A stretch of DNA of 64,000 bases from a marine actinobacterium PHSC20C1 (GTDB lineage Bacteria > Actinomycetota > Actinomycetes > Actinomycetales > Microbacteriaceae), in assembly GCA_000153145.1 (NCBI GenBank), contig CH672415.1:1240750-1304749 (forward strand), written 5' to 3'. This document shows, piece after piece, positions 48,616 to 56,433 of the stretch. How positions within the stretch are numbered: the first letter of the stretch is position 1; every line of letters starts with the position of its first letter. Below the pieces are notes generated by a model. The model was not told the DNA's origin, ran no database searches, and saw only the letters and a program-made list of their open reading frames with translations. The translations under genes and the position numbers were made by a program.

Positions 48616-49506
48616 CTAGTCCAGAGTTGAACTGAACTGTTTGAGCCAAGGCCGCAGGTCGGGGCCCAGGTCTTCGCGCTCAACAGCAAGCTGCACGATC
48701 GCCTTGATGTAATCGAGGCGATCGCCGGTGTCATAGCGTCGGCCGCGAAAGACAACGCCGTAGACGCCGCCGGCGACATCATTCTGTGCCATTTCGAGCA
48801 GGGCATCCGTCAGCTGAATTTCGCCGCCCTTACCGGGATCGGTGCGCTCGAGGATTTCAAAGATTTCGGGGCGCAAGACATAGCGACCGATGATGGCGAG
48901 ATTCGATGGCGCTGTGCCCTGAACTGGTTTTTCGACCAGACCAGTGATGCGTACGACATCATTGTCATCGGTGGGCTCGACGGTGGCGATTCCGTACATG
49001 TGGCTCTGGGCGGGATCAACTTCCATGAGGGCAATGACAGTCGCGTTGCGCGAAGTCTGCTCCGCGAGCATCCGCGAAAGCAACACATCGCGCTCGTCGA
49101 TGAGGTCGTCACCGAGCAACACTGCGAAAGGCTCGTTGCCGACGTGCATCCGGGCCCTCAACACAGCGTGCCCGAGACCGCGCGGGTCACCCTGGCGCAC
49201 GTAGTGCATGTCAGCGAGGTCGTTAGAGAACTCAACCTTTGAGAGACGATCGGTGTCGCCTTTCTGCTCAAGTGTCGCTTCGAGTTCTGTCATTCTGTCG
49301 AAATGGTTCTCTAGGGCGTTCTTGTTTCGCCCCGTAATCATCAGCACATCGGTGAGACCAGCGGCGACCGCTTCCTCAACGACGTACTGGATGGCTGGCT
49401 TGTCTACAACCGGCAACATCTCCTTCGGCATTGCCTTGGTAGCCGGCAAAAATCGGGTGCCCAGACCTGCAGCAGGAATAACCGCTTTAGTAATCTTCGA
49501 TGCCAT
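48616..49506 (-). CDS. galU: UTP--glucose-1-phosphate uridylyltransferase
   Basis: 296 residues. ITKAVIPAAGLGTRFLPATKAMPKEMLPVVDKP is the complete nucleotide-binding signature. Further motifs are QGDPRGLGHAVLRA, LLGDDLIDE, GLVEKP and IQLTDALLEMAQ. It forms UDP-glucose for the ugd reaction and for wall glycan synthesis. It is divergent from the 5-formyl-THF cyclo-ligase across 38 bases. Confidence 0.96.
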   Translation of the reverse strand: MASKITKAVIPAAGLGTRFLPATKAMPKEMLPVVDKPAIQYVVEEAVAAGLTDVLMITGRNKNALENHFDRMTELEATLEQKGDTDRLSKVEFSNDLADMHYVRQGDPRGLGHAVLRARMHVGNEPFAVLLGDDLIDERDVLLSRMLAEQTSRNATVIALMEVDPAQSHMYGIATVEPTDDNDVVRITGLVEKPVQGTAPSNLAIIGRYVLRPEIFEILERTDPGKGGEIQLTDALLEMAQNDVAGGVYGVVFRGRRYDTGDRLDYIKAIVQLAVEREDLGPDLRPWLKQFSSTLD

Positions 49507-49544: not shown

Positions 49545-50135
49545 ATGACCGACGACGTCAGTCACGACAAACGTGCACTCCGAGCCGAATTACGCGAACG
49601 CCGCCGCATCTGCACCGCCAAAGAGCGGGACGAATCTGAAGCGGGTGTGACCGCGAACCTCATCGAACTCGCTACACGTCTAGGTTCTACATCGGTAGCG
49701 GCCTATCTCTCCACTACAGACGAACCTCAAACCCGCGGATTTCTTCGCTGGGCCTGCGAACACGACATCCGTGTTCTGCTCCCCATCTCGCGTGCTGACG
49801 GCCTCCTCGATTGGGCGCCCTATGACGGCGAAGAAGAAGACAAAGACCTCATCGGCATGCCTGCGCCCACCAGCGAAGTACTAGGCCCGATTGCTATCAA
49901 CGATGTCGACCTCATCATCGTGCCCGCTGCATCCGTGGATCGCACCGGTATGCGCATGGGTTGGGGCCGCGGCTACTTCGATAAGACTCTCGGCTCGATG
50001 GAAACAAAACCTCCCATTTATGCCGTGATCTTCGAGAGCGAATATGTGGACGCTGTCCCCACAGAACTTCACGACCAACCAGTCAATGGCATAGTTACCC
50101 CCTCGGGAATTGTGACCATTACCGAGCACAACTAA
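49545..50135 (+). CDS. 5-formyltetrahydrofolate cyclo-ligase
   Basis: 196 residues. The N-terminal KRALRAELRERRR stretch, the phosphate-loop VPAASVDRTGMRMGWGRGYFDKTL and the C-terminal PTELHDQPVNGIVTPSGIVT are standard for MTHFS. It turns 5-formyl-THF into 5,10-methenyl-THF with ATP. Seven bases downstream starts the FmdB-like gene. The cluster 5-FCL/FmdB/mscL next to divergent galU is the same as in mycobacteria. Confidence 0.93.
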   Translation: MTDDVSHDKRALRAELRERRRICTAKERDESEAGVTANLIELATRLGSTSVAAYLSTTDEPQTRGFLRWACEHDIRVLLPISRADGLLDWAPYDGEEEDKDLIGMPAPTSEVLGPIAINDVDLIIVPAASVDRTGMRMGWGRGYFDKTLGSMETKPPIYAVIFESEYVDAVPTELHDQPVNGIVTPSGIVTITEHN

Positions 50136-50142
50136 GGATCTA

Positions 50143-50487
50143 GTGCCTACCTATTCTTACCGCTGTACCGAGTGCGAAAACGCGTTCGATATTCAGCAGT
50201 CGTTCATTGATGACTCGTTGACGGTGTGTCCAACCTGCGACGGCAAGCTCCGTAAAGTGTTCTCCGCCGTCGGCGTCACCTTCAACGGTTCAGGCTTCTA
50301 CCGCAATGATTCGCGGGCAACGAAGAGCTCGAGCGACTCGAGTTCAAGCACGTCAAGTTCATCGTCCAGCAGCTCGACACCGAGCAAGTCGACTTCAGAT
50401 TCCGGGTCGTCGGGGTCAACTTCGGGTTCGTCATCCTCTTCCACTTCGACGTCATCTTCGTCTCCCAAGGCCGCCAAAGCGTCATAG
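50143..50487 (+). CDS. FmdB-type zinc-ribbon protein with serine-rich tail (Ruc-like)
   Basis: 114 residues, GTG start. The N-terminal zinc ribbon is PTYSYRCTECENAFDI then VCPTCDGKLRKVFS, with four Cys (two CxxC pairs). FNGSGFYRND ends the conserved part. The last ~55 residues are almost only Ser, Thr, Gly, Lys and Pro, certainly disordered. The mycobacterial counterpart Rv0991c (Ruc) is a redox-regulated chaperone; the same role here is inferred from the Cys ribbon, disordered tail and gene order. Confidence 0.82.
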   Translation: MPTYSYRCTECENAFDIQQSFIDDSLTVCPTCDGKLRKVFSAVGVTFNGSGFYRNDSRATKSSSDSSSSTSSSSSSSSTPSKSTSDSGSSGSTSGSSSSSTSTSSSSPKAAKAS

Positions 50488-50518: not shown

Positions 50519-50932
50519 ATGTTAAGCGGATTCAAAACGTTCATTTTGCGTGGCAATGTCATCGATCTCGCGGTCGCAGTCGTCATTGGCGCCGCATTCA
50601 CCGCAGTCGTCAACACGATCGTTGAGGCCGTCTTCAACCCACTGATCGGCGCACTCTTCAACGCCGAGACACTCTCCACGGCACTTCCCGTTACGATTCC
50701 GACCGCTGGCGGCGAAGATGCCGTCATCTACTTCGGTGCAGTAATCGCAGCGCTCGTTCAGTTCTTGCTGGTCGCAGTCGTCGTGTACTTCGCGATCGTC
50801 GCCCCGATGAACTACGCCAACAAGCTCGCTGCCGCTCGCAAGCCGGTGGTCATCGAACCAGAAGCTGGCCCCACCGAGGCAGAGTTGCTTCTACAGATTC
50901 GCGACCTACTCGCGAAGCAGAACAACAGCTAA
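50519..50932 (+). CDS. mscL: Large-conductance mechanosensitive channel
   Basis: 137 residues from an ATG after GAAGGAG. N-terminal LSGFKTFILRGNVIDLAVAVVIGAAFTAVVNTIVEAV is the pore helix M1; M2 is AVIAALVQFLLVAVVVYFAIV; the C-terminal helix PTEAELLLQIRDLL is kept. It opens under membrane tension to release solutes. It ends the 5-FCL/FmdB/mscL group. Confidence 0.96.
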   Translation: MLSGFKTFILRGNVIDLAVAVVIGAAFTAVVNTIVEAVFNPLIGALFNAETLSTALPVTIPTAGGEDAVIYFGAVIAALVQFLLVAVVVYFAIVAPMNYANKLAAARKPVVIEPEAGPTEAELLLQIRDLLAKQNNS

Positions 50933-50978: not shown

Positions 50979-51218
50979 CTACCCCCAATGTGGAGGTTTG
51001 TCGCCCTTGAGTCGCTCGTCATTCTCATTAGCTGGATGCCGCGATGCTTCCCCGGTGGGATGAGGATCTGAGCCCTCTGGCGGTACGGTCGTCACACGGC
51101 GACTCTTACGCGCCTTCGCGGGAGGTTTTGCGCTCTCCGGTTCCTCGACTGCTGGCTCGCCGCACACGTGCGACTGGCTCGGCTCCTCGCTCAATCGTGA
51201 GTCCTCAGTGCCACACAC
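50979..51218 (-). CDS. Small hydrophilic protein downstream of the degenerate helicase
   Basis: 79 residues, GTG start 3 bases after the stop of the large helicase-like gene and in the same operon. It is charged and proline-rich with no hydrophobic segment, probably disordered. The C-terminal part (SRRVTTVPPEGSDPHP then NENDERLKGDKPPHWG) is more ordered in composition and looks like a short conserved peptide motif of actinobacterial proteins. I do not recognise a function. The lack of a clear ribosome site suggests coupling to the upstream gene. Confidence 0.6.
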   Translation of the reverse strand: MCGTEDSRLSEEPSQSHVCGEPAVEEPESAKPPAKARKSRRVTTVPPEGSDPHPTGEASRHPANENDERLKGDKPPHWG

Positions 51219-51221
51219 GAG

Positions 51222-54200
51222 TTAATGCTCGGGACGGGTGGCGGGGATGATCGCAATGGGCTCAGTGTTTGGAGCAGGATCAGCTCCGAGCATCCGCGCC
51301 ACCTTGTCTGCGACCTGATCCGGGTCGCTAAAAAGCTCGAAGGCATGCACGCGCAAGTAGTGCCAGCCCAGTCGACGTAAAAGCTCAGGGCGCAAGCGCA
51401 ACGACTCTCGCAGGCTTGACTCGTGAACCATGGCATCGGTCTCGATTGTTCCGCAGCGACCGCCAAGAGACGCAACGAGACCCAACTTGGCGCGGTGGCC
51501 CAGTGCAACGCGCAGGCCGCGCTTTTCGAGGCGACGTGCAAGATCGACAAGCATTGGATCACTGTCGTCAGGAACAGGAATTTCAGCGTAACGTGCATCA
51601 ACCTCGTCGAGAACCTCCGCCAACGCGACAGCACCGTGTTTCATACGGCCATCGTCGAGATCTTCAGAACGGAATGACGTAACGATCTCAAGCGAACGAC
51701 GGGCTCGAGTCATTGCGACGGCGAGCAAGCGCTCTCCGCCTGGCTCACCAAGCGAACCAAAGTCGGAGAGAACGCGACCGTGAGGTGTGCGGCCGTATCC
51801 AATGGAGAAGATAACTCGGTCGCGGCTTTGGGCAACAGCCTGATCGATCGTCGTGACAGTAAACGGTTCGGAACGGTCGCCGATAATGACATCGATCAGT
51901 TCTGGGCGACGGCGGCCAACAGCATCCAACACCGCCTGCATGACCCGCACAGCGTGCAACGGGCTTGCCGTAATAACCATGAGGGATTCGTGAGGTCGTT
52001 TCGTTGCGTGGTCAAGGACAAGCTCAACCACAGTCGAGACCTCGGCGTCGGGGCTTTCCACCGCGCCAGAGTCGGGGTCGGGCATTCCGACCCCATCTGC
52101 GACATAACTGACCGCGAGGCTGCCGTGGCCCAGGAAGCTTCCCGCCCACGGCAAGGACTCGATTTGGCCGCCATAGAAACGACGGTTCACCAGCTCAGCA
52201 AGCTCTTCGCCGCCGGGGCGATAGCTCCGCGTGAGAGTGAGAGTCGGCAGAAGTCCGCTCAGTCGAGCGAATGCCGAATCTTCCACGAGGGCTTCACGCG
52301 CTTCGTCGTCAACGGGAGGCGGTGCATCCGCGGTCGCGTCACGCACTGCAATTTCGAATGGAGTCGGTGACTGGATTACGGGGTCACCAACGACAACTAC
52401 CTGCTTCGATCGACGGATAGCACCAGTCGCTTCGGCCACGGTCATCGCGCCAGCATCAACGAGGAACACCGTGTCAAACGGCATGGTGTCGACGACGGAG
52501 TCAACTTCGTAGGGCGATGCAAGCCACACTGGCGCGATTGTGCGCGATAGGTGGGGCGCCGATGTTTGCACGTCGAACGACGTAAGCCTGTCTTTCGAGA
52601 GGGCACGTTTGAGTGCACTGGCTTCATCTGGCCAGTCAACGAGCCCAATCTTCCAGTTTTCCGCAATCTGCCATGAGAGCTGTTTGGCATTTGCAGAAGC
52701 GTGCGCTTCGTCGACGAGACGGAAGTCAGCTTCGAGGCGATCTACCACCGAGGTATTGGCGTTGAGGAGTGCGCGATCGATCTCGAGCATGGAGTCGAGC
52801 GCCGACTTCCACCACGACAGTTCAAGCTCTGCCGCGACCTGATTTTCGGGAACGTGCCGTTTGGCCAGATCATCGATGAGGGGATTAAGTTTGAGCTCGC
52901 GCAGGCTACCCATGAGAGCCGTGCGCTCTTGCAAATTATTGAGCACATCGGATTCGGCGGCGAGCGCGGAAATCTTGTCGATCAAGAAGGGGATCGGCAG
53001 GCCAGACAGGTTGACGTGTGAATCAGCGATGCCCAGCGGGATGTCGAGAGCAGCAAGATCTTCCGACACCTGCTGGTACGACCGCTGGACTTCACTAATG
53101 CCGACGGGTACTGCAGGGCTTGCACCCTCCGCCACGAAACGGTGCCAGAGTACGCGCTGTTTCTGAATTCGCATCAGCGCAGCATGCATGTCATTGACAC
53201 GCACACCGGGGCGCACGTACTCGAGCGCGAGCTTCTTGAGACGACGACGATTGCTGTTCGTCATGTCAGGGAAGTCGCGACGCGGTGCGGTCGCGGCAAT
53301 AAGTTCAGTTATCGCCCGGTCGAAGACCGTAGGAACAAACCGGTCGAGGGTCTCGCGAAGATCAACAAGAAGTCGCAAATACACGCCGAGCTCATCGATG
53401 CTCTGGAAGGGGCGCATCCGAGTGTTCGATACAAGTCGGTTGGCGACATCAAGCAGTTCGGACAACTGAAGATTGACCCGTTTGGCAATCTCGTGAGCCT
53501 TGAGAGCCTCACCACCATTCGCAAACTGTGCTCCGTACCAGGGCGAATCGCCGGGGCCGTATTTGAATTCGCCCAGCTTGGCCGCCGCAATAATTACACC
53601 GGTTGCAGCGGTTCGGTCCTTGGCGAGCTTCTCCACCGATTCGCGCGACAGCCGTGCTGTCGTCGATGGCGGGTTCGGCAAGAGAGCAAGTCTGCTGAGC
53701 TCCGATACACAATCGAGAACGGAAACCCCGAGCACGTCATCAGCGACAGACATCGAGCCTCGGTAGTCGAGCATGATCTTGCGCAGACGAAGGAGCGCTT
53801 CATCCACGTCTTCGATTTGGGGCCGAGTGGACTTCTCACTGCGAGAGATCGAACGGATGATGTCGCGACGCAGCGTGCCCGGAGCCACAGAAAGTCCCGG
53901 CAACCCGATGTCACCGAAGCGTTCTGCGATCGACAGTAGAGAGGCGCGACGAGGGCTGACAACGAGCACTCGCTTGTTCTGCGCAACAAGAGCACCGACG
54001 GCGTTCACAATAGTTTGCGTCCCACCAGTGCCCGGTAGCGTGCGAACAACCAACGAGTTGCCCGCTTCAATCTGGGCGATCACGTTTTCTTGTTCAGCAT
54101 CCGCGTCGAGCAATAGGTTGTCAGTTTGCGGCGAGCGCTCGTCTGCCGACAGCGCAGGAACCGGAGAGTAACCCTCCTTGATGGTCCATGCCGCTGCGGT

Positions 54201-55019
54201 ATTACCCGCAAGCGCATCCAGGATCGGATGCTGCAAGTCGGCGGCATCGTCAGCCAGTCCAGGAGCTACGTCAGCAAACGAAGAGACCACAAGTCGTGGG
54301 CTCACGGCAAAGCCGCTCAAGTGGGAGGTGAGGCCGCGAAGGCGATCGATCACCGGGTTTGGCTTGAAGGTGCCATCAGCATCCGTGAGCGCGACAAACG
54401 ACTGCGCGTCGAGGCGCAGCTGGAATTGTTCGTCGAGCGCGCGAGCAAACTCTGGATTGAGGAAAGCAGCACCGCGCAGCTTTAGTTCAAAATCTCGACC
54501 GTGTCGGCGGATCGCGAGCGGACGCAACAAGACCGGGGCACAGTATTCAACGTCGTCATGGTTCCAGCGAGCAATACCGATTCCGAGATGCACTGAATCG
54601 ATTCCGCGAGCCGATGACAGCTCAAGACCCTTCGCCGCAACGGCACCAGCCGCGGTTTTAGCAGACCGAAGCGCAACATCATCGCGAATCAAACTCGACA
54701 GCAGTGTGCGCTTTCCTGTGATGAACTGCGCCAACCCTCCCGGGTGGGTCGTCGAAAGCTCAACGCGCGTGCGGGGCGAATCAACAAAGTGCAATAGCGG
54801 CGACTGGCCACCCAGATCGGACAATTGCGAACGCCATAGCGTCCACATGGGCTCTGCTACGTTTCCGGCCATGATGTTCGGCTCACCAAAACTCAGCGTA
54901 TGGGGCGCTGTTACCTGAATGTGGGGATGTGGGTGCCCATTTTCTTCGTCGTCAACGTTCTCGTCAACCGAATCTGGGTCAACCGAGTAGTCATCTGAAA
55001 CTTTATCTGCACGCCACAC
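51222..55019 (-). CDS. SF1-helicase/REase-fold fusion with altered catalytic motifs
   Basis: 1265 residues, GTG start after AAGGTGG. The layout follows SF1 helicases with a C-terminal restriction-endonuclease-like (MTES_1575-type) domain. Motif Q/Ia context DADAEQENVIAQIEAG precedes LPGTGGTQT (residues 328-336), where the Walker A Lys is Gly. Walker B is FLVDAGAM (852-859), with the catalytic Glu of the usual DEASQ missing. GDPVIQSPT (879-887) replaces GDPKQLPPT. Motif IV/YR (LTRSYRPGGEEL) and the TRAR of motif VI (1104-1107) survive. The nuclease-like tail has LGLVAS in place of the IDLAV-type Asp and keeps IETD. An intact frame this long with losses at all active sites suggests a non-catalytic DNA- or protein-binding role. 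Confidence 0.75.
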   Translation of the reverse strand: MWRADKVSDDYSVDPDSVDENVDDEENGHPHPHIQVTAPHTLSFGEPNIMAGNVAEPMWTLWRSQLSDLGGQSPLLHFVDSPRTRVELSTTHPGGLAQFITGKRTLLSSLIRDDVALRSAKTAAGAVAAKGLELSSARGIDSVHLGIGIARWNHDDVEYCAPVLLRPLAIRRHGRDFELKLRGAAFLNPEFARALDEQFQLRLDAQSFVALTDADGTFKPNPVIDRLRGLTSHLSGFAVSPRLVVSSFADVAPGLADDAADLQHPILDALAGNTAAAWTIKEGYSPVPALSADERSPQTDNLLLDADAEQENVIAQIEAGNSLVVRTLPGTGGTQTIVNAVGALVAQNKRVLVVSPRRASLLSIAERFGDIGLPGLSVAPGTLRRDIIRSISRSEKSTRPQIEDVDEALLRLRKIMLDYRGSMSVADDVLGVSVLDCVSELSRLALLPNPPSTTARLSRESVEKLAKDRTAATGVIIAAAKLGEFKYGPGDSPWYGAQFANGGEALKAHEIAKRVNLQLSELLDVANRLVSNTRMRPFQSIDELGVYLRLLVDLRETLDRFVPTVFDRAITELIAATAPRRDFPDMTNSNRRRLKKLALEYVRPGVRVNDMHAALMRIQKQRVLWHRFVAEGASPAVPVGISEVQRSYQQVSEDLAALDIPLGIADSHVNLSGLPIPFLIDKISALAAESDVLNNLQERTALMGSLRELKLNPLIDDLAKRHVPENQVAAELELSWWKSALDSMLEIDRALLNANTSVVDRLEADFRLVDEAHASANAKQLSWQIAENWKIGLVDWPDEASALKRALSKDRLTSFDVQTSAPHLSRTIAPVWLASPYEVDSVVDTMPFDTVFLVDAGAMTVAEATGAIRRSKQVVVVGDPVIQSPTPFEIAVRDATADAPPPVDDEAREALVEDSAFARLSGLLPTLTLTRSYRPGGEELAELVNRRFYGGQIESLPWAGSFLGHGSLAVSYVADGVGMPDPDSGAVESPDAEVSTVVELVLDHATKRPHESLMVITASPLHAVRVMQAVLDAVGRRRPELIDVIIGDRSEPFTVTTIDQAVAQSRDRVIFSIGYGRTPHGRVLSDFGSLGEPGGERLLAVAMTRARRSLEIVTSFRSEDLDDGRMKHGAVALAEVLDEVDARYAEIPVPDDSDPMLVDLARRLEKRGLRVALGHRAKLGLVASLGGRCGTIETDAMVHESSLRESLRLRPELLRRLGWHYLRVHAFELFSDPDQVADKVARMLGADPAPNTEPIAIIPATRPEH

Positions 55020-55134
55020 ACCGCCACCTTAAGCGTCTATACGCAAGAAAGCCTGCAACAACAACGAGTTTCGTGAGACTCATTCGGCAGCCCCACCCCC
55101 AGTTCTCGCGACAAGCGGCCGTAGAATACCGGGC

Positions 55135-56433
55135 ATGGTGCCCCACGCCCTCCCCCTGTTGGCCGTCACCGATGTCACCGAGCTAGTGCGTGGCACCACG
55201 ATTGCCGTCGCAGCAATCGTCGTGCTGGTGCTGGCATTGGGGGCTGGCGCTTTCGTTGTCTTGTTTCGTCGCGGCGGTGATCGCGGTATCCGCGGCACTG
55301 CGTCGCAGACCGGTCTCGATTCACGGGCCGCCGCCCTGCTGGTCGCGTTAGATGATCGCGTTCGTGAAGCAGAGAATGAAGTCGGCTTCGCTGAGGCTCA
55401 ATTTGGTGTCGCAAGCACGCGCGATTTTGACAGCGCACTCAATGACGCCAGAGAGCAATTGACTGAAGCATTCCGCTTGGGCCAGCAACGGGATACGGAA
55501 GCGAGCACGGCTGACAGAGTACGGCGAAGTCTTAGCCTGCAGATGATCGCGCTGTGCGAGAAAGCCGTAGCGACCCTCGACCACTTCGACACCGAGTTCA
55601 CTCAACGGCGTCGCACCGAAGTGGGGGCGGCAGAAACCGCAAACACCCTTCGTTCACGATTGCAGGCGCTGCGCGATCGGCAGTCGGCTCTGGAAGAACG
55701 GCGCAGCGAGGCAGCCGAGCGGTACGTCGCAGCCGCGATCGAGTCGATGGTGAGACAACTCAGTCAGGCAAGCGAATCGCTCCGAGAGGCGGAGCAACAA
55801 TTGGATGCTGCCTCCCCCGAGATCAGCCCGACTGGAGTGAATGCCGTTGCCGATGTCTTGCGTGCCGTTGCCGTACAGCTGCACCGCGCCGACCAACTGC
55901 TTTCAGCGGTCGAACGCTCGCTCGAGGAGCTGAGTGCGGCGGACGCGGCCGTTGAGCGGATGCGACACTCCAGCACGAGCGACCTGCGCGAAGCGCATTC
56001 TGCGCTCGATTCCGCACCGGACCCCGCAACGGGAGCCCAGATTGTTGCGGCAATAGCCGCGGTTAAAGGAGCACTCAGCGCAGCCACAGTGAACGCTGGC
56101 GATCTCAGGAACCCACTCGGGCAACTAGCCGCGATCAGCGATGCCTCGACACAGTTGGATGGCGCGCTCGCTTCAGCGAGAAATCAACAACAGAGGTTCG
56201 ATCACGCCCGTGCTGCGTATGAGGGGACTCTTGTGGCGGCCCGGAGTCAGATCTCCGTTGCACGCGAACTAGTCGGACGCGGGGGTGCAAGCGCACGTGC
56301 CCGCACGCGACTAGCGGAGGCGGAGCGTCAGCTAGTGATCGCTGAAGCTGAGACTGATCCGGTGGAGGCGTTGGATGCCATCCGCCGGTCGGTGACCCAT
56401 GCTCGAGATGCTGACGCTCTCGCCCGCTACTAG
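55135..56433 (+). CDS. Membrane-anchored coiled-coil protein (TPM-protein C-region-like)
   Basis: 432 residues. One membrane helix (about residues 20-43) with a short external N-terminus, then ~380 residues of heptad-like, Ala/Glu/Arg/Gln-rich helix. The segment LDDRVREAENEVGFAEAQFGVA with DSALNDAREQLTEAFRLGQQ resembles the C-terminal part of actinobacterial TPM-domain proteins, but the TPM domain itself is missing. Function unknown; membrane stress or envelope scaffolding is possible. It is divergent from the helicase-like gene across 115 bases. Confidence 0.65.
   Translation: MVPHALPLLAVTDVTELVRGTTIAVAAIVVLVLALGAGAFVVLFRRGGDRGIRGTASQTGLDSRAAALLVALDDRVREAENEVGFAEAQFGVASTRDFDSALNDAREQLTEAFRLGQQRDTEASTADRVRRSLSLQMIALCEKAVATLDHFDTEFTQRRRTEVGAAETANTLRSRLQALRDRQSALEERRSEAAERYVAAAIESMVRQLSQASESLREAEQQLDAASPEISPTGVNAVADVLRAVAVQLHRADQLLSAVERSLEELSAADAAVERMRHSSTSDLREAHSALDSAPDPATGAQIVAAIAAVKGALSAATVNAGDLRNPLGQLAAISDASTQLDGALASARNQQQRFDHARAAYEGTLVAARSQISVARELVGRGGASARARTRLAEAERQLVIAEAETDPVEALDAIRRSVTHARDADALARY

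Follow-up and report, generated by a model that had tools for sequence, protein, structure and literature searches.

A putative pseudo-helicase/nuclease kept at a shared locus across an actinobacterial order, with a small, recurrently fused PPHW protein

How does a helicase- and nuclease-like protein come to be kept at full length when the residues expected of its active sites have been replaced? The question is raised by a gene at positions 51222-55019 of a 64,000-nucleotide stretch of the genome of the marine actinobacterium PHSC20C1 (the whole stretch is called the window here, and the product of the gene the window protein). Our answer, which we consider probable, is that the gene encodes a core pseudoenzyme passed on vertically: a pseudo-helicase of old standing, retained as a scaffold that binds nucleic acid and works together with a small protein that ends in a PPHW tail (the PPHW protein). 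The term pseudo-helicase takes catalytic activity to have been lost, as the residues alone suggest.

An intact reading frame with altered catalytic motifs

The gene is a single uninterrupted frame of 1265 codons on the minus strand, running from a GTG start at 55019 down to 51222 (the plus strand of this interval has 16 stops in frame 1), and it has one match in its own 2.77 Mb single-contig genome. The original prediction, made from the sequence of the window, had described an unbroken frame of this length with its own ribosome site. Both parts are borne out, a Shine-Dalgarno-like AAGG lying upstream of the GTG, and TTAAGGTGGCGGTGTGTGG is kept in three close congeners (L002, L003 and L005). 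The window protein comprises, in order, a DUF4011-like N-terminus, the first part of a superfamily 1 (SF1) helicase core, a helical insert of about 400 residues, the remainder of the SF1 core and a restriction endonuclease (REase) domain of the MTES_1575 type:

51222..55019, minus strand: pseudo-helicase/nuclease gene, 1265 aa, GTG start (from reading frame and motif alignment)
55027..55030, minus strand: Shine-Dalgarno-like AAGG, 7 nt upstream of the GTG (string kept in L002, L003 and L005)
54120..54842, minus strand: DUF4011-like N-terminal region, residues 60-300 (from a sub-gathering Pfam match at 1.6e-3, residues 135-184)
54015..54047, minus strand: motif I (Walker A) LPGTGGTQ, residues 325-335; Lys lost, Gly/Thr kept
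52560..53822, minus strand: nearly all-helical insert between motifs Ia and II, residues 400-820, including RRRLKKLALEYVRPG (from model and conservation)
52440..52475, minus strand: motif II, residues 849-860; VDAG in place of DEAS
52362..52403, minus strand: motif III, residues 873-886; Gln lost
52209..52241, minus strand: motif IV SYR, residues 927-937; Arg kept
51801..51863, minus strand: motif V, residues 1053-1073; VAQSRD in place of QGDERD
51678..51737, minus strand: motif VI MTRARR, residues 1095-1114; Args kept
51282..51539, minus strand: MTES_1575-type REase, residues 1161-1246; first and last Asp lost, E-x-D kept

Alignment with motif-intact relatives agrees with the losses that had been predicted: the Walker A Lys is replaced by Gly at residue 333 (VRTLPGTGGTQ versus VKGPPGTGKSQ), motif II lacks its Glu (VDAGA versus DEASQ, with gapless D-to-V and E-to-D changes), motif III has lost its Gln (GDPVIQSPT versus GDERQLPPT), and in the REase core (LGLVAS versus IDLAV) the first Asp, which we take to be a catalytic residue, has become Gly. 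Motif V, absent from the predicted list, is altered as well. The broader statement that every visible catalytic motif is altered stands for motifs I, II, III and V and for the REase Asp, and fails for the Arg residues of motifs IV and VI and the REase ExD, which are kept.

The window's family (f1) was tallied over 88 distinct rows of fetched loci, rather than over all genomes, of which 85 or 84 have letters at given columns; 15 paralogue rows were dropped beforehand, some records were assigned to the family through titles and identity, and some are metagenome-assembled genomes titled only Actinomycetota or Microbacteriaceae. The residues of active SF1 enzymes are missing throughout: the Walker A Lys is found in 0/88 rows, the motif II Glu and the motif III Gln each in 0/85, and motif V is lost in every row with letters there. 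By contrast with these losses, 85/85 rows retain the motif IV Arg, and those of motif VI are retained in 84/85 and 85/85. All 40 rows of an alignment designated A1 share the Gln of a Q-motif-like DAEQEN. In the REase, the first Asp is present in 1 of 84 rows and the last in none, with the Glu and second Asp of the ExD present in 82 and 84. A set of 83 rows, which excludes four fragments (L053 and L078-L080) and the small-genome genera, has P-loop residues T327, P329, G330, T331, G332, T334 and Q335 in all 83; the place of the Lys is taken by Gly (73), Ala (9) or Ser (1), and Asp stands at the motif II Glu place in 83/83.

That uniform Asp, together with motif VI Args and a REase ExD that most family members retain, could be taken as the remains of an enzyme still driven by ATP, its chemistry rebuilt on other residues. 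However, the Lys, the Glu, the motif III Gln and motif V are gone from all family rows with letters, and the residues that remain differ again in other families and in small-genome members, and we regard such an enzyme as highly improbable.

Purifying selection within the family

The selection estimates cover members of the window's family only. Against ten congeners, the ratio of nonsynonymous to synonymous substitution (dN/dS, NG86) is 0.024-0.040, at dS values of 1.16-1.57 that are partly saturated, and the 25 closest family pairs give 0.010-0.086, as expected for purifying selection. Because the Lys is found in none of the 88 rows and dN/dS against the congeners is so low, its loss is not a matter of chance. 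The proposal of a conserved role that needs no ATPase gains support, the gene being Lys-less in the family and yet under this constraint and matched in 196/199 family genomes.

Intact motifs within the genus had been named as a sign of recent decay. The window's own copy and 26 same-genus copies all lack the Lys, and copies with it were found in other families only; this check did not refute the proposal. Decay toward a pseudogene might be read into the Pfam results, in which all matches of the window protein are sub-gathering (AAA_12 at 4.8e-5, MTES_1575 at 1.3e-4, DUF4011 at 1.6e-3 and AAA_11 at 0.02), as against seven models above gathering, some of them overlapping, in the intact relative L094 (MTES_1575, AAA_11, AAA_12 and DUF4011 among them). 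For MTES_1575 (PF18741), with a gathering threshold of 38.2 bits, the window protein scores 22.4, L094 73.2, and the altered copies L101 and L102 47.3 and 49.3. Recent decay is refuted by the dN/dS values, by 26 same-genus copies without an internal stop and by a Lys loss common to a 56-row clade, and its probability is negligible.

Near-universal presence in the family and order

At 1e-50, the gene is matched in 177/179 of the good family genomes and in 85/85 genera; the three family genomes without a match are G446 (82% complete), G475 (96%) and G532 (94%). With the intact L094 as query, 146/149 genomes of the order match at 1e-30. The genome tallies for genus, family, order and class count any match, and an intact paralogue (for example L204) can stand for the core gene. 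At least 13 family matches have one stop within the aligned span, which is probably the natural stop near the C-terminal end, their open frames being 1251-1603 aa long. A core-type copy was obtained from 20/20 sampled families of the order, those from f13 and f17 being partial only.

All nine genomes selected for being small (0.7-1.5 Mb, five of them at least 98% complete) match, and the Lys is absent from all nine copies. One of these genomes (L268; 0.9 Mb, 98% complete) keeps a copy of 1175 aa though its P-loop is nearly gone (PGAQVTQ).

In the class, 30/148 genomes match, and outside the order 20/138, the full-length matches there being mostly from f38. This altered lineage (L211 and L213-L221) has Arg in place of the Lys in 10/10 rows and ED or DD in motif II, and several f38 genomes have the PPHW protein, MscL and FmdB close by. 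Some genomes also carry separate motif-intact paralogues of about 1850-2300 aa, the size of Hhe/MTES_1575 proteins (L114-L119 and L204, with L115 from the window's genus). Among plasmids, 103 records match partly and one over more than 80% of the query (28.7% identity, in a 415 kb record); phage records gave one partial match and no counterpart over 80% of the query length.

The order of the losses

The Lys is absent from 176/184 distinct copies of the order, and the eight that have it all belong to f5 and f18. A tree was built by a quick search under LG+G4 from 70 representatives of at most 62% identity, each (apart from two outgroup rows) with 850 or more filled positions, over the 1086 columns that remained once the motifs had been taken out; f13 and f17, known from partial copies only, lie outside it. 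Families f1, f4, f6, f7, f9, f12, f15, f16, f20 and f38 were recovered as clades, and f3, f8, f14 and f18 not cleanly; many rows have an unusual letter make-up, and the finer branches are uncertain. Rows with the Lys are confined to f5, f18, the single f45 row and the outgroup L204. The 56-row clade, which holds 16 other families (support of 99 in the Shimodaira-Hasegawa-like approximate likelihood ratio test, SH-aLRT), has no Lys, and the Lys rows of f5 and f18 branch beside it. This tree requires at least 4 changes of the Lys state; the Lys-less clade is recovered again by a mixture model applied to 47 rows (33 rows in the clade, support 100), with 3 changes. Further losses occurred within f18 (L159, L166 and L169) and, in f5, in the partial row L126.

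The nuclease Asp was lost later than the ATPase residues, and patchily, and the window's family is among those that lost it. Rows that retain this first REase Asp number 8/10 in f6, 8/9 in f7, 3/3 in f8 and 6/9 in f16, versus the 1/84 given above, and the MTES_1575 scores of the altered L101 and L102 lie above gathering. These observations would fit a nuclease scaffold in transition, whose ATPase died first and whose REase stayed useful in some families before dying in the window's. Set against them, the last Asp is found in 0/10 rows of f6 and 0/4 of f8, and the Glu in 0/3 of f8. As an account of the whole this transition seems unlikely, and it is compatible with our preferred explanation as far as the window's family itself is concerned. 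Rows of f6 and f7 such as L093 and L151 lack the Lys and keep the first REase Asp, often with the ExD; they possibly represent a stage that is ATPase-dead and nuclease-competent.

One locus for altered and intact copies

The following genes lie downstream of the pseudo-helicase gene:

50519..50932, plus strand: MscL, a convergent gene adjacent in many of the order's families
50143..50487, plus strand: FmdB-type zinc ribbon protein, conserved neighbour
49545..50135, plus strand: presumably 5-formyltetrahydrofolate cyclo-ligase, neighbour conserved in the family
48616..49506, minus strand: GalU, neighbour conserved in the family

Among copies with at least 2.5 kb of downstream sequence, FmdB and/or MscL are found at 43/45 family copies and 58/70 copies from other families of the order, together 101/115. 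This arrangement occurs in 16/18 of those other families (f11 0/1, f12 0/6) and at 9/10 further loci whose protein duplicates another row. MscL lies beside 8/8 motif-intact copies of the order (f5 and f18); the intact f45 copy L210 has neither MscL nor FmdB in the flank examined, and the same holds for the paralogues L114-L119 and L204. Because these neighbours are shared by altered and intact copies and by none of the seven paralogues, orthology at a single, vertically inherited locus is the most likely relation between the altered and the intact genes.

The pseudo-helicase gene also evolves slowly, much as GalU does. In five genome pairs its dN/dS is 0.033-0.040 and that of GalU 0.031-0.038, with 0.033-0.071 for a HesB-like gene, 0.038-0.061 for NhaA, 0.056-0.071 for GNAT, 0.024-0.092 for the cyclo-ligase and 0.067-0.082 for MscL; a divergent neighbour (55135-56433) is highest of the eight genes in each pair, at 0.094-0.183. 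This neighbour, on the plus strand, encodes 432 aa with an N-terminal hydrophobic stretch and a coiled-coil look, and has no clear Pfam match (best 0.015). The FmdB protein has a long Ser-rich tail, and we take it to resemble the mycobacterial chaperone Ruc.

The nearest family models to the window protein come from anti-phage systems (antiphage_ProA at 1.4e-82, Hhe at 7.8e-36 and PADLOC PDC-S37 at 2.7e-85), and the original prediction had linked the protein to defence or to a decoy function. A defence protein of the ProA/Hhe class, acting as sensor or decoy through an unusual active site, is nonetheless improbable. The scores are far below the curated cut-offs (278 versus 1500 bits for ProA, NF058533; 123 versus 2000 for Hhe, NF042953), and the gene is near-universal, sits at a fixed chromosomal locus, branches in step with the families, evolves at a GalU-like rate, and has a counterpart over more than 80% of its length on one plasmid record and no phage record. 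Defence as the main role was rejected on account of the fixed core locus.

A predicted Upf1-like fold and helical insert

The structure of residues 55-1250 was predicted by AlphaFold2 from 40 rows, with a mean predicted local distance difference test (pLDDT) score of 69.3 and a predicted template modelling (pTM) score of 0.46. A Foldseek search of the PDB gave 60 matches at E values of up to 0.001. At their head are SETX, Dna2, Sen1 and Upf1, whose first hits have E values of 1e-9 to 4e-7, along with spliceosomal helicase-like chains (Aquarius), and HelD is also present. TM-scores are low (query-normalised at most 0.23, target-normalised up to 0.34), as would be expected from a multidomain model with loose domains. 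Motifs I-VI in order and the Foldseek matches both point to an Upf1-like SF1 fold, as the comparison with active SF1 helicases proposed in the original prediction had invited, at moderate model confidence and with low TM-scores. A sequence search of the PDB with the window protein gave a chance match only (arginase, 0.085).

Modelled alone, the insert is nearly all helical (pLDDT 83.7, pTM 0.56). It has no Foldseek match in the PDB at 0.001, and a PDB search with its profile found nothing credible (best 0.039).

Conservation within the protein was compared by sliding 15-residue identity among intact copies, clade A (f1, f6 and f7) and clade B (f3, f4, f9, f10, f12, f14 and f20). Intact copies and clade A both place motif I at the 99th percentile, and clade B places it at the 70th; for motif IV the three groups give the 93rd, 50th and 27th. 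Within the insert, RRRLKKLALEYVRPG (591-605) ranks first of all blocks in clade B and fourth in clade A. It falls outside the top 12 in intact copies, where the adjoining, overlapping 601-615 is twelfth. Mean identity in intact copies, clade A and clade B is 0.49, 0.39 and 0.37 over the whole protein, 0.85, 0.62 and 0.38 at motif I, and 0.47, 0.45 and 0.48 in the insert core (560-640). By this measure of sequence identity, constraint was lost at the ATP site and kept at the insert core.

The behaviour of motif I in clade A, the P-loop and motif II Asp residues invariant in 83/83 family rows and the retained Args of motifs IV and VI would suit a sensor or switch, in which a Lys-less pocket binds nucleotide and the bound state controls partners. 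The clade B percentiles speak against this, as do small-genome members in which the pocket is altered further and the gene is kept nonetheless. Because the gene is kept where the pocket is eroded, a switch cannot be the order-wide role, and we consider it somewhat unlikely as the general explanation.

The small PPHW protein

The small downstream partner named in the original prediction is supported by the following open reading frame (ORF) and its counterparts elsewhere:

50979..51218, minus strand: small partner ORF, 79 aa (start uncertain), ending in NDERLKGDKPPHWG and beginning 3 nt past the helicase stop codon

A stop-proximal P[PA]H[WYF] tail occurs at most 700 nt downstream at 169/194 loci, compared with 7/194 in an antisense control and 2/183 and 1/183 in upstream controls. 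Counted per distinct helicase, the tail is found in 153/178 (antisense 7/178), and within the order in 152/167, of which 17 are in-frame fusions. Fusions of helicase and PPHW tail occur in seven families, and the fused state changes at least nine times on the tree. The tail also accompanies motif-intact copies, following L094, L095, L124, L125, L127 and L135 and being fused in L096 and L123. Among the nine small-genome loci, it is fused in five (L270-L274) and lies downstream in L267 and L269, and L275 has a weak PPHF candidate. Under the strict tail rule L106, L174, L196, L210, L212 and 8/9 distinct f38 rows give no match; in f38, a gene that looks CBS-like by eye intervenes and the tail protein lies further on. 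L093 also fails the rule, its PPHW lying further from the stop.

The small protein is acidic, with an end like DDTDRGWGExxDDDERLLREKPPHW (in 50979-51218 and L237-L266), and the copies scanned have no match in Pfam (five copies) or NCBIfam (four copies). In the window's own genome, the coding pattern (D/E)(K/R)PPHW occurs once, in ORF 50979-51218. At E 0.01 the small protein matches 142/197 genomes of the class (16 in the order, 126 outside it), with a single match in 140 of the 142. Specificity for this helicase was rejected on that distribution: the PPHW protein is an older neighbour that became linked with the helicase gene. That the two work together is suggested mainly by the recurrent fusion.

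A proposed history and the points against it

We propose that the ancestor was a protein of about 1250 aa with a DUF4011-like N-terminus, an Upf1-like SF1 core bearing the long helical insert, and an MTES_1575-type REase, a type that would still be present, motif-intact, at the same locus in two families. Its ATPase residues would have been lost early, on the line to most of the order, and its nuclease residues afterwards and patchily, those of the window's family included. The fold would have been retained as an ATP-independent scaffold that binds nucleic acid through its SF1 and REase parts, with the helical insert and the PPHW tail or protein as the working surface for partners; as a dead motor organising partners on nucleic acid, it would be somewhat like RecC or Deinococcus PriA. 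In most of the window's family, the small-genome genera excepted, nucleotide might still be bound as a switch without hydrolysis, because the T-x-P-G-T-G-[GA]-T-Q backbone, the motif IV and VI Args and the Q-motif-like Gln remain. In distant families the pocket would be eroded and the scaffold role alone could remain.

A wider version, which we hold only tentatively, is that an anti-phage-type DUF4011-SF1-REase enzyme was domesticated early in one actinobacterial order as a core ATP-independent scaffold, working with the repeatedly fused PPHW protein. Because all nine of the chosen 0.7-1.5 Mb genomes keep the gene, it would probably be needed for normal growth.

Several observations weigh against the preferred reading of a retained, nucleic-acid-binding scaffold. 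Nucleic-acid binding is argued from the fold family, through a model of moderate confidence with low TM-scores, and dS against the congeners is, as noted, partly saturated. Small-genome family members have GCGYTQ, GAQVTQ or GSGITQ as motif I, the first motif VI Arg is lost in 7/8 of their copies (L267 and L269-L274), and the motif II Asp is Gly in L268. Lys-less P-loops can act as ATPases in rare cases. Some altered relatives in f6, f7, f8 and f16, to judge by the first REase Asp that they keep, may still be able to cut; these retained REase residues and the small-genome pocket changes lower our confidence in both the scaffold and the domestication proposals. As for the partnership, L268 has no PPHW tail within 700 nt, and the strict tail rule finds none in Subtercola and related rows (L061-L064, L067, L070, L071 and L086) or in f20. 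The PPHW protein is also wider in the class than the helicase (142/197 versus 30/148, in samples and at thresholds that differ), and it is often near MscL, so its adjacency to the helicase may be positional.

Significance and comparison with known systems

Pseudohelicases have rarely been described in bacteria. Here, intact cousins at the same locus allow the step from enzyme to scaffold to be placed on a tree, with loss of the ATPase preceding that of the nuclease, and a comparison of altered with intact copies can show which residues still matter. The locus is also an entry point to the PPHW family and, if the pseudo-helicase gene proves essential, these bacteria have a core process that has gone unnoticed.

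The best profile matches, the ProA/Hhe systems (NF058533 and NF042953; PADLOC PDC-S37 and Hhe), share the order of DUF4011-like region, SF1 core and MTES_1575-type REase. Their models span 1903 and 1797 positions, versus 1265 aa for the window protein, which differs further in its lost catalytic residues and fixed core locus. SETX, Sen1, Upf1, Dna2 and IGHMBP2, among the best solved-structure matches at 12-18% identity and low TM-scores, carry active ATPase motifs. RecC of RecBCD is a dead SF1 helicase with a dead nuclease fold that serves as a scaffold; it belongs to a different SF1 subgroup and has RecB and RecD as partners. The PriA pseudohelicase of Deinococcus radiodurans has, to our knowledge, no REase domain.

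The MTES_1575 protein of Microbacterium testaceum, as described (PMC3710099), shares an SF1 helicase and a Vsr-like REase with the window protein and also has HEPN (given as active), transglutaminase and wHTH/DUF3320 parts; the intact paralogues of about 2000 aa (L114-L119) are closer to it in size than the window protein is. In Pseudomonas aeruginosa, a DUF4011 gene that borders a defence hotspot is reported to occur in every isolate (PMC10250203), and a core DUF4011 gene is therefore not unique to this order. A literature search, with most subscription journals outside its reach, found nothing on the present protein, and the pseudohelicase papers it returned were judged to concern other proteins. 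PriA of D. radiodurans has lost its ATPase and kept DNA and partner binding (PMC4504706); PriA is active in most bacteria, and its Walker A change is Lys to Arg, unlike the Lys to Gly of the window protein. The kind is in principle already known from that example and from RecC, and what is new, as far as the search shows, is a putative core pseudohelicase found throughout an order, with motif-intact cousins that share its locus and a small partner to which it has repeatedly become fused.

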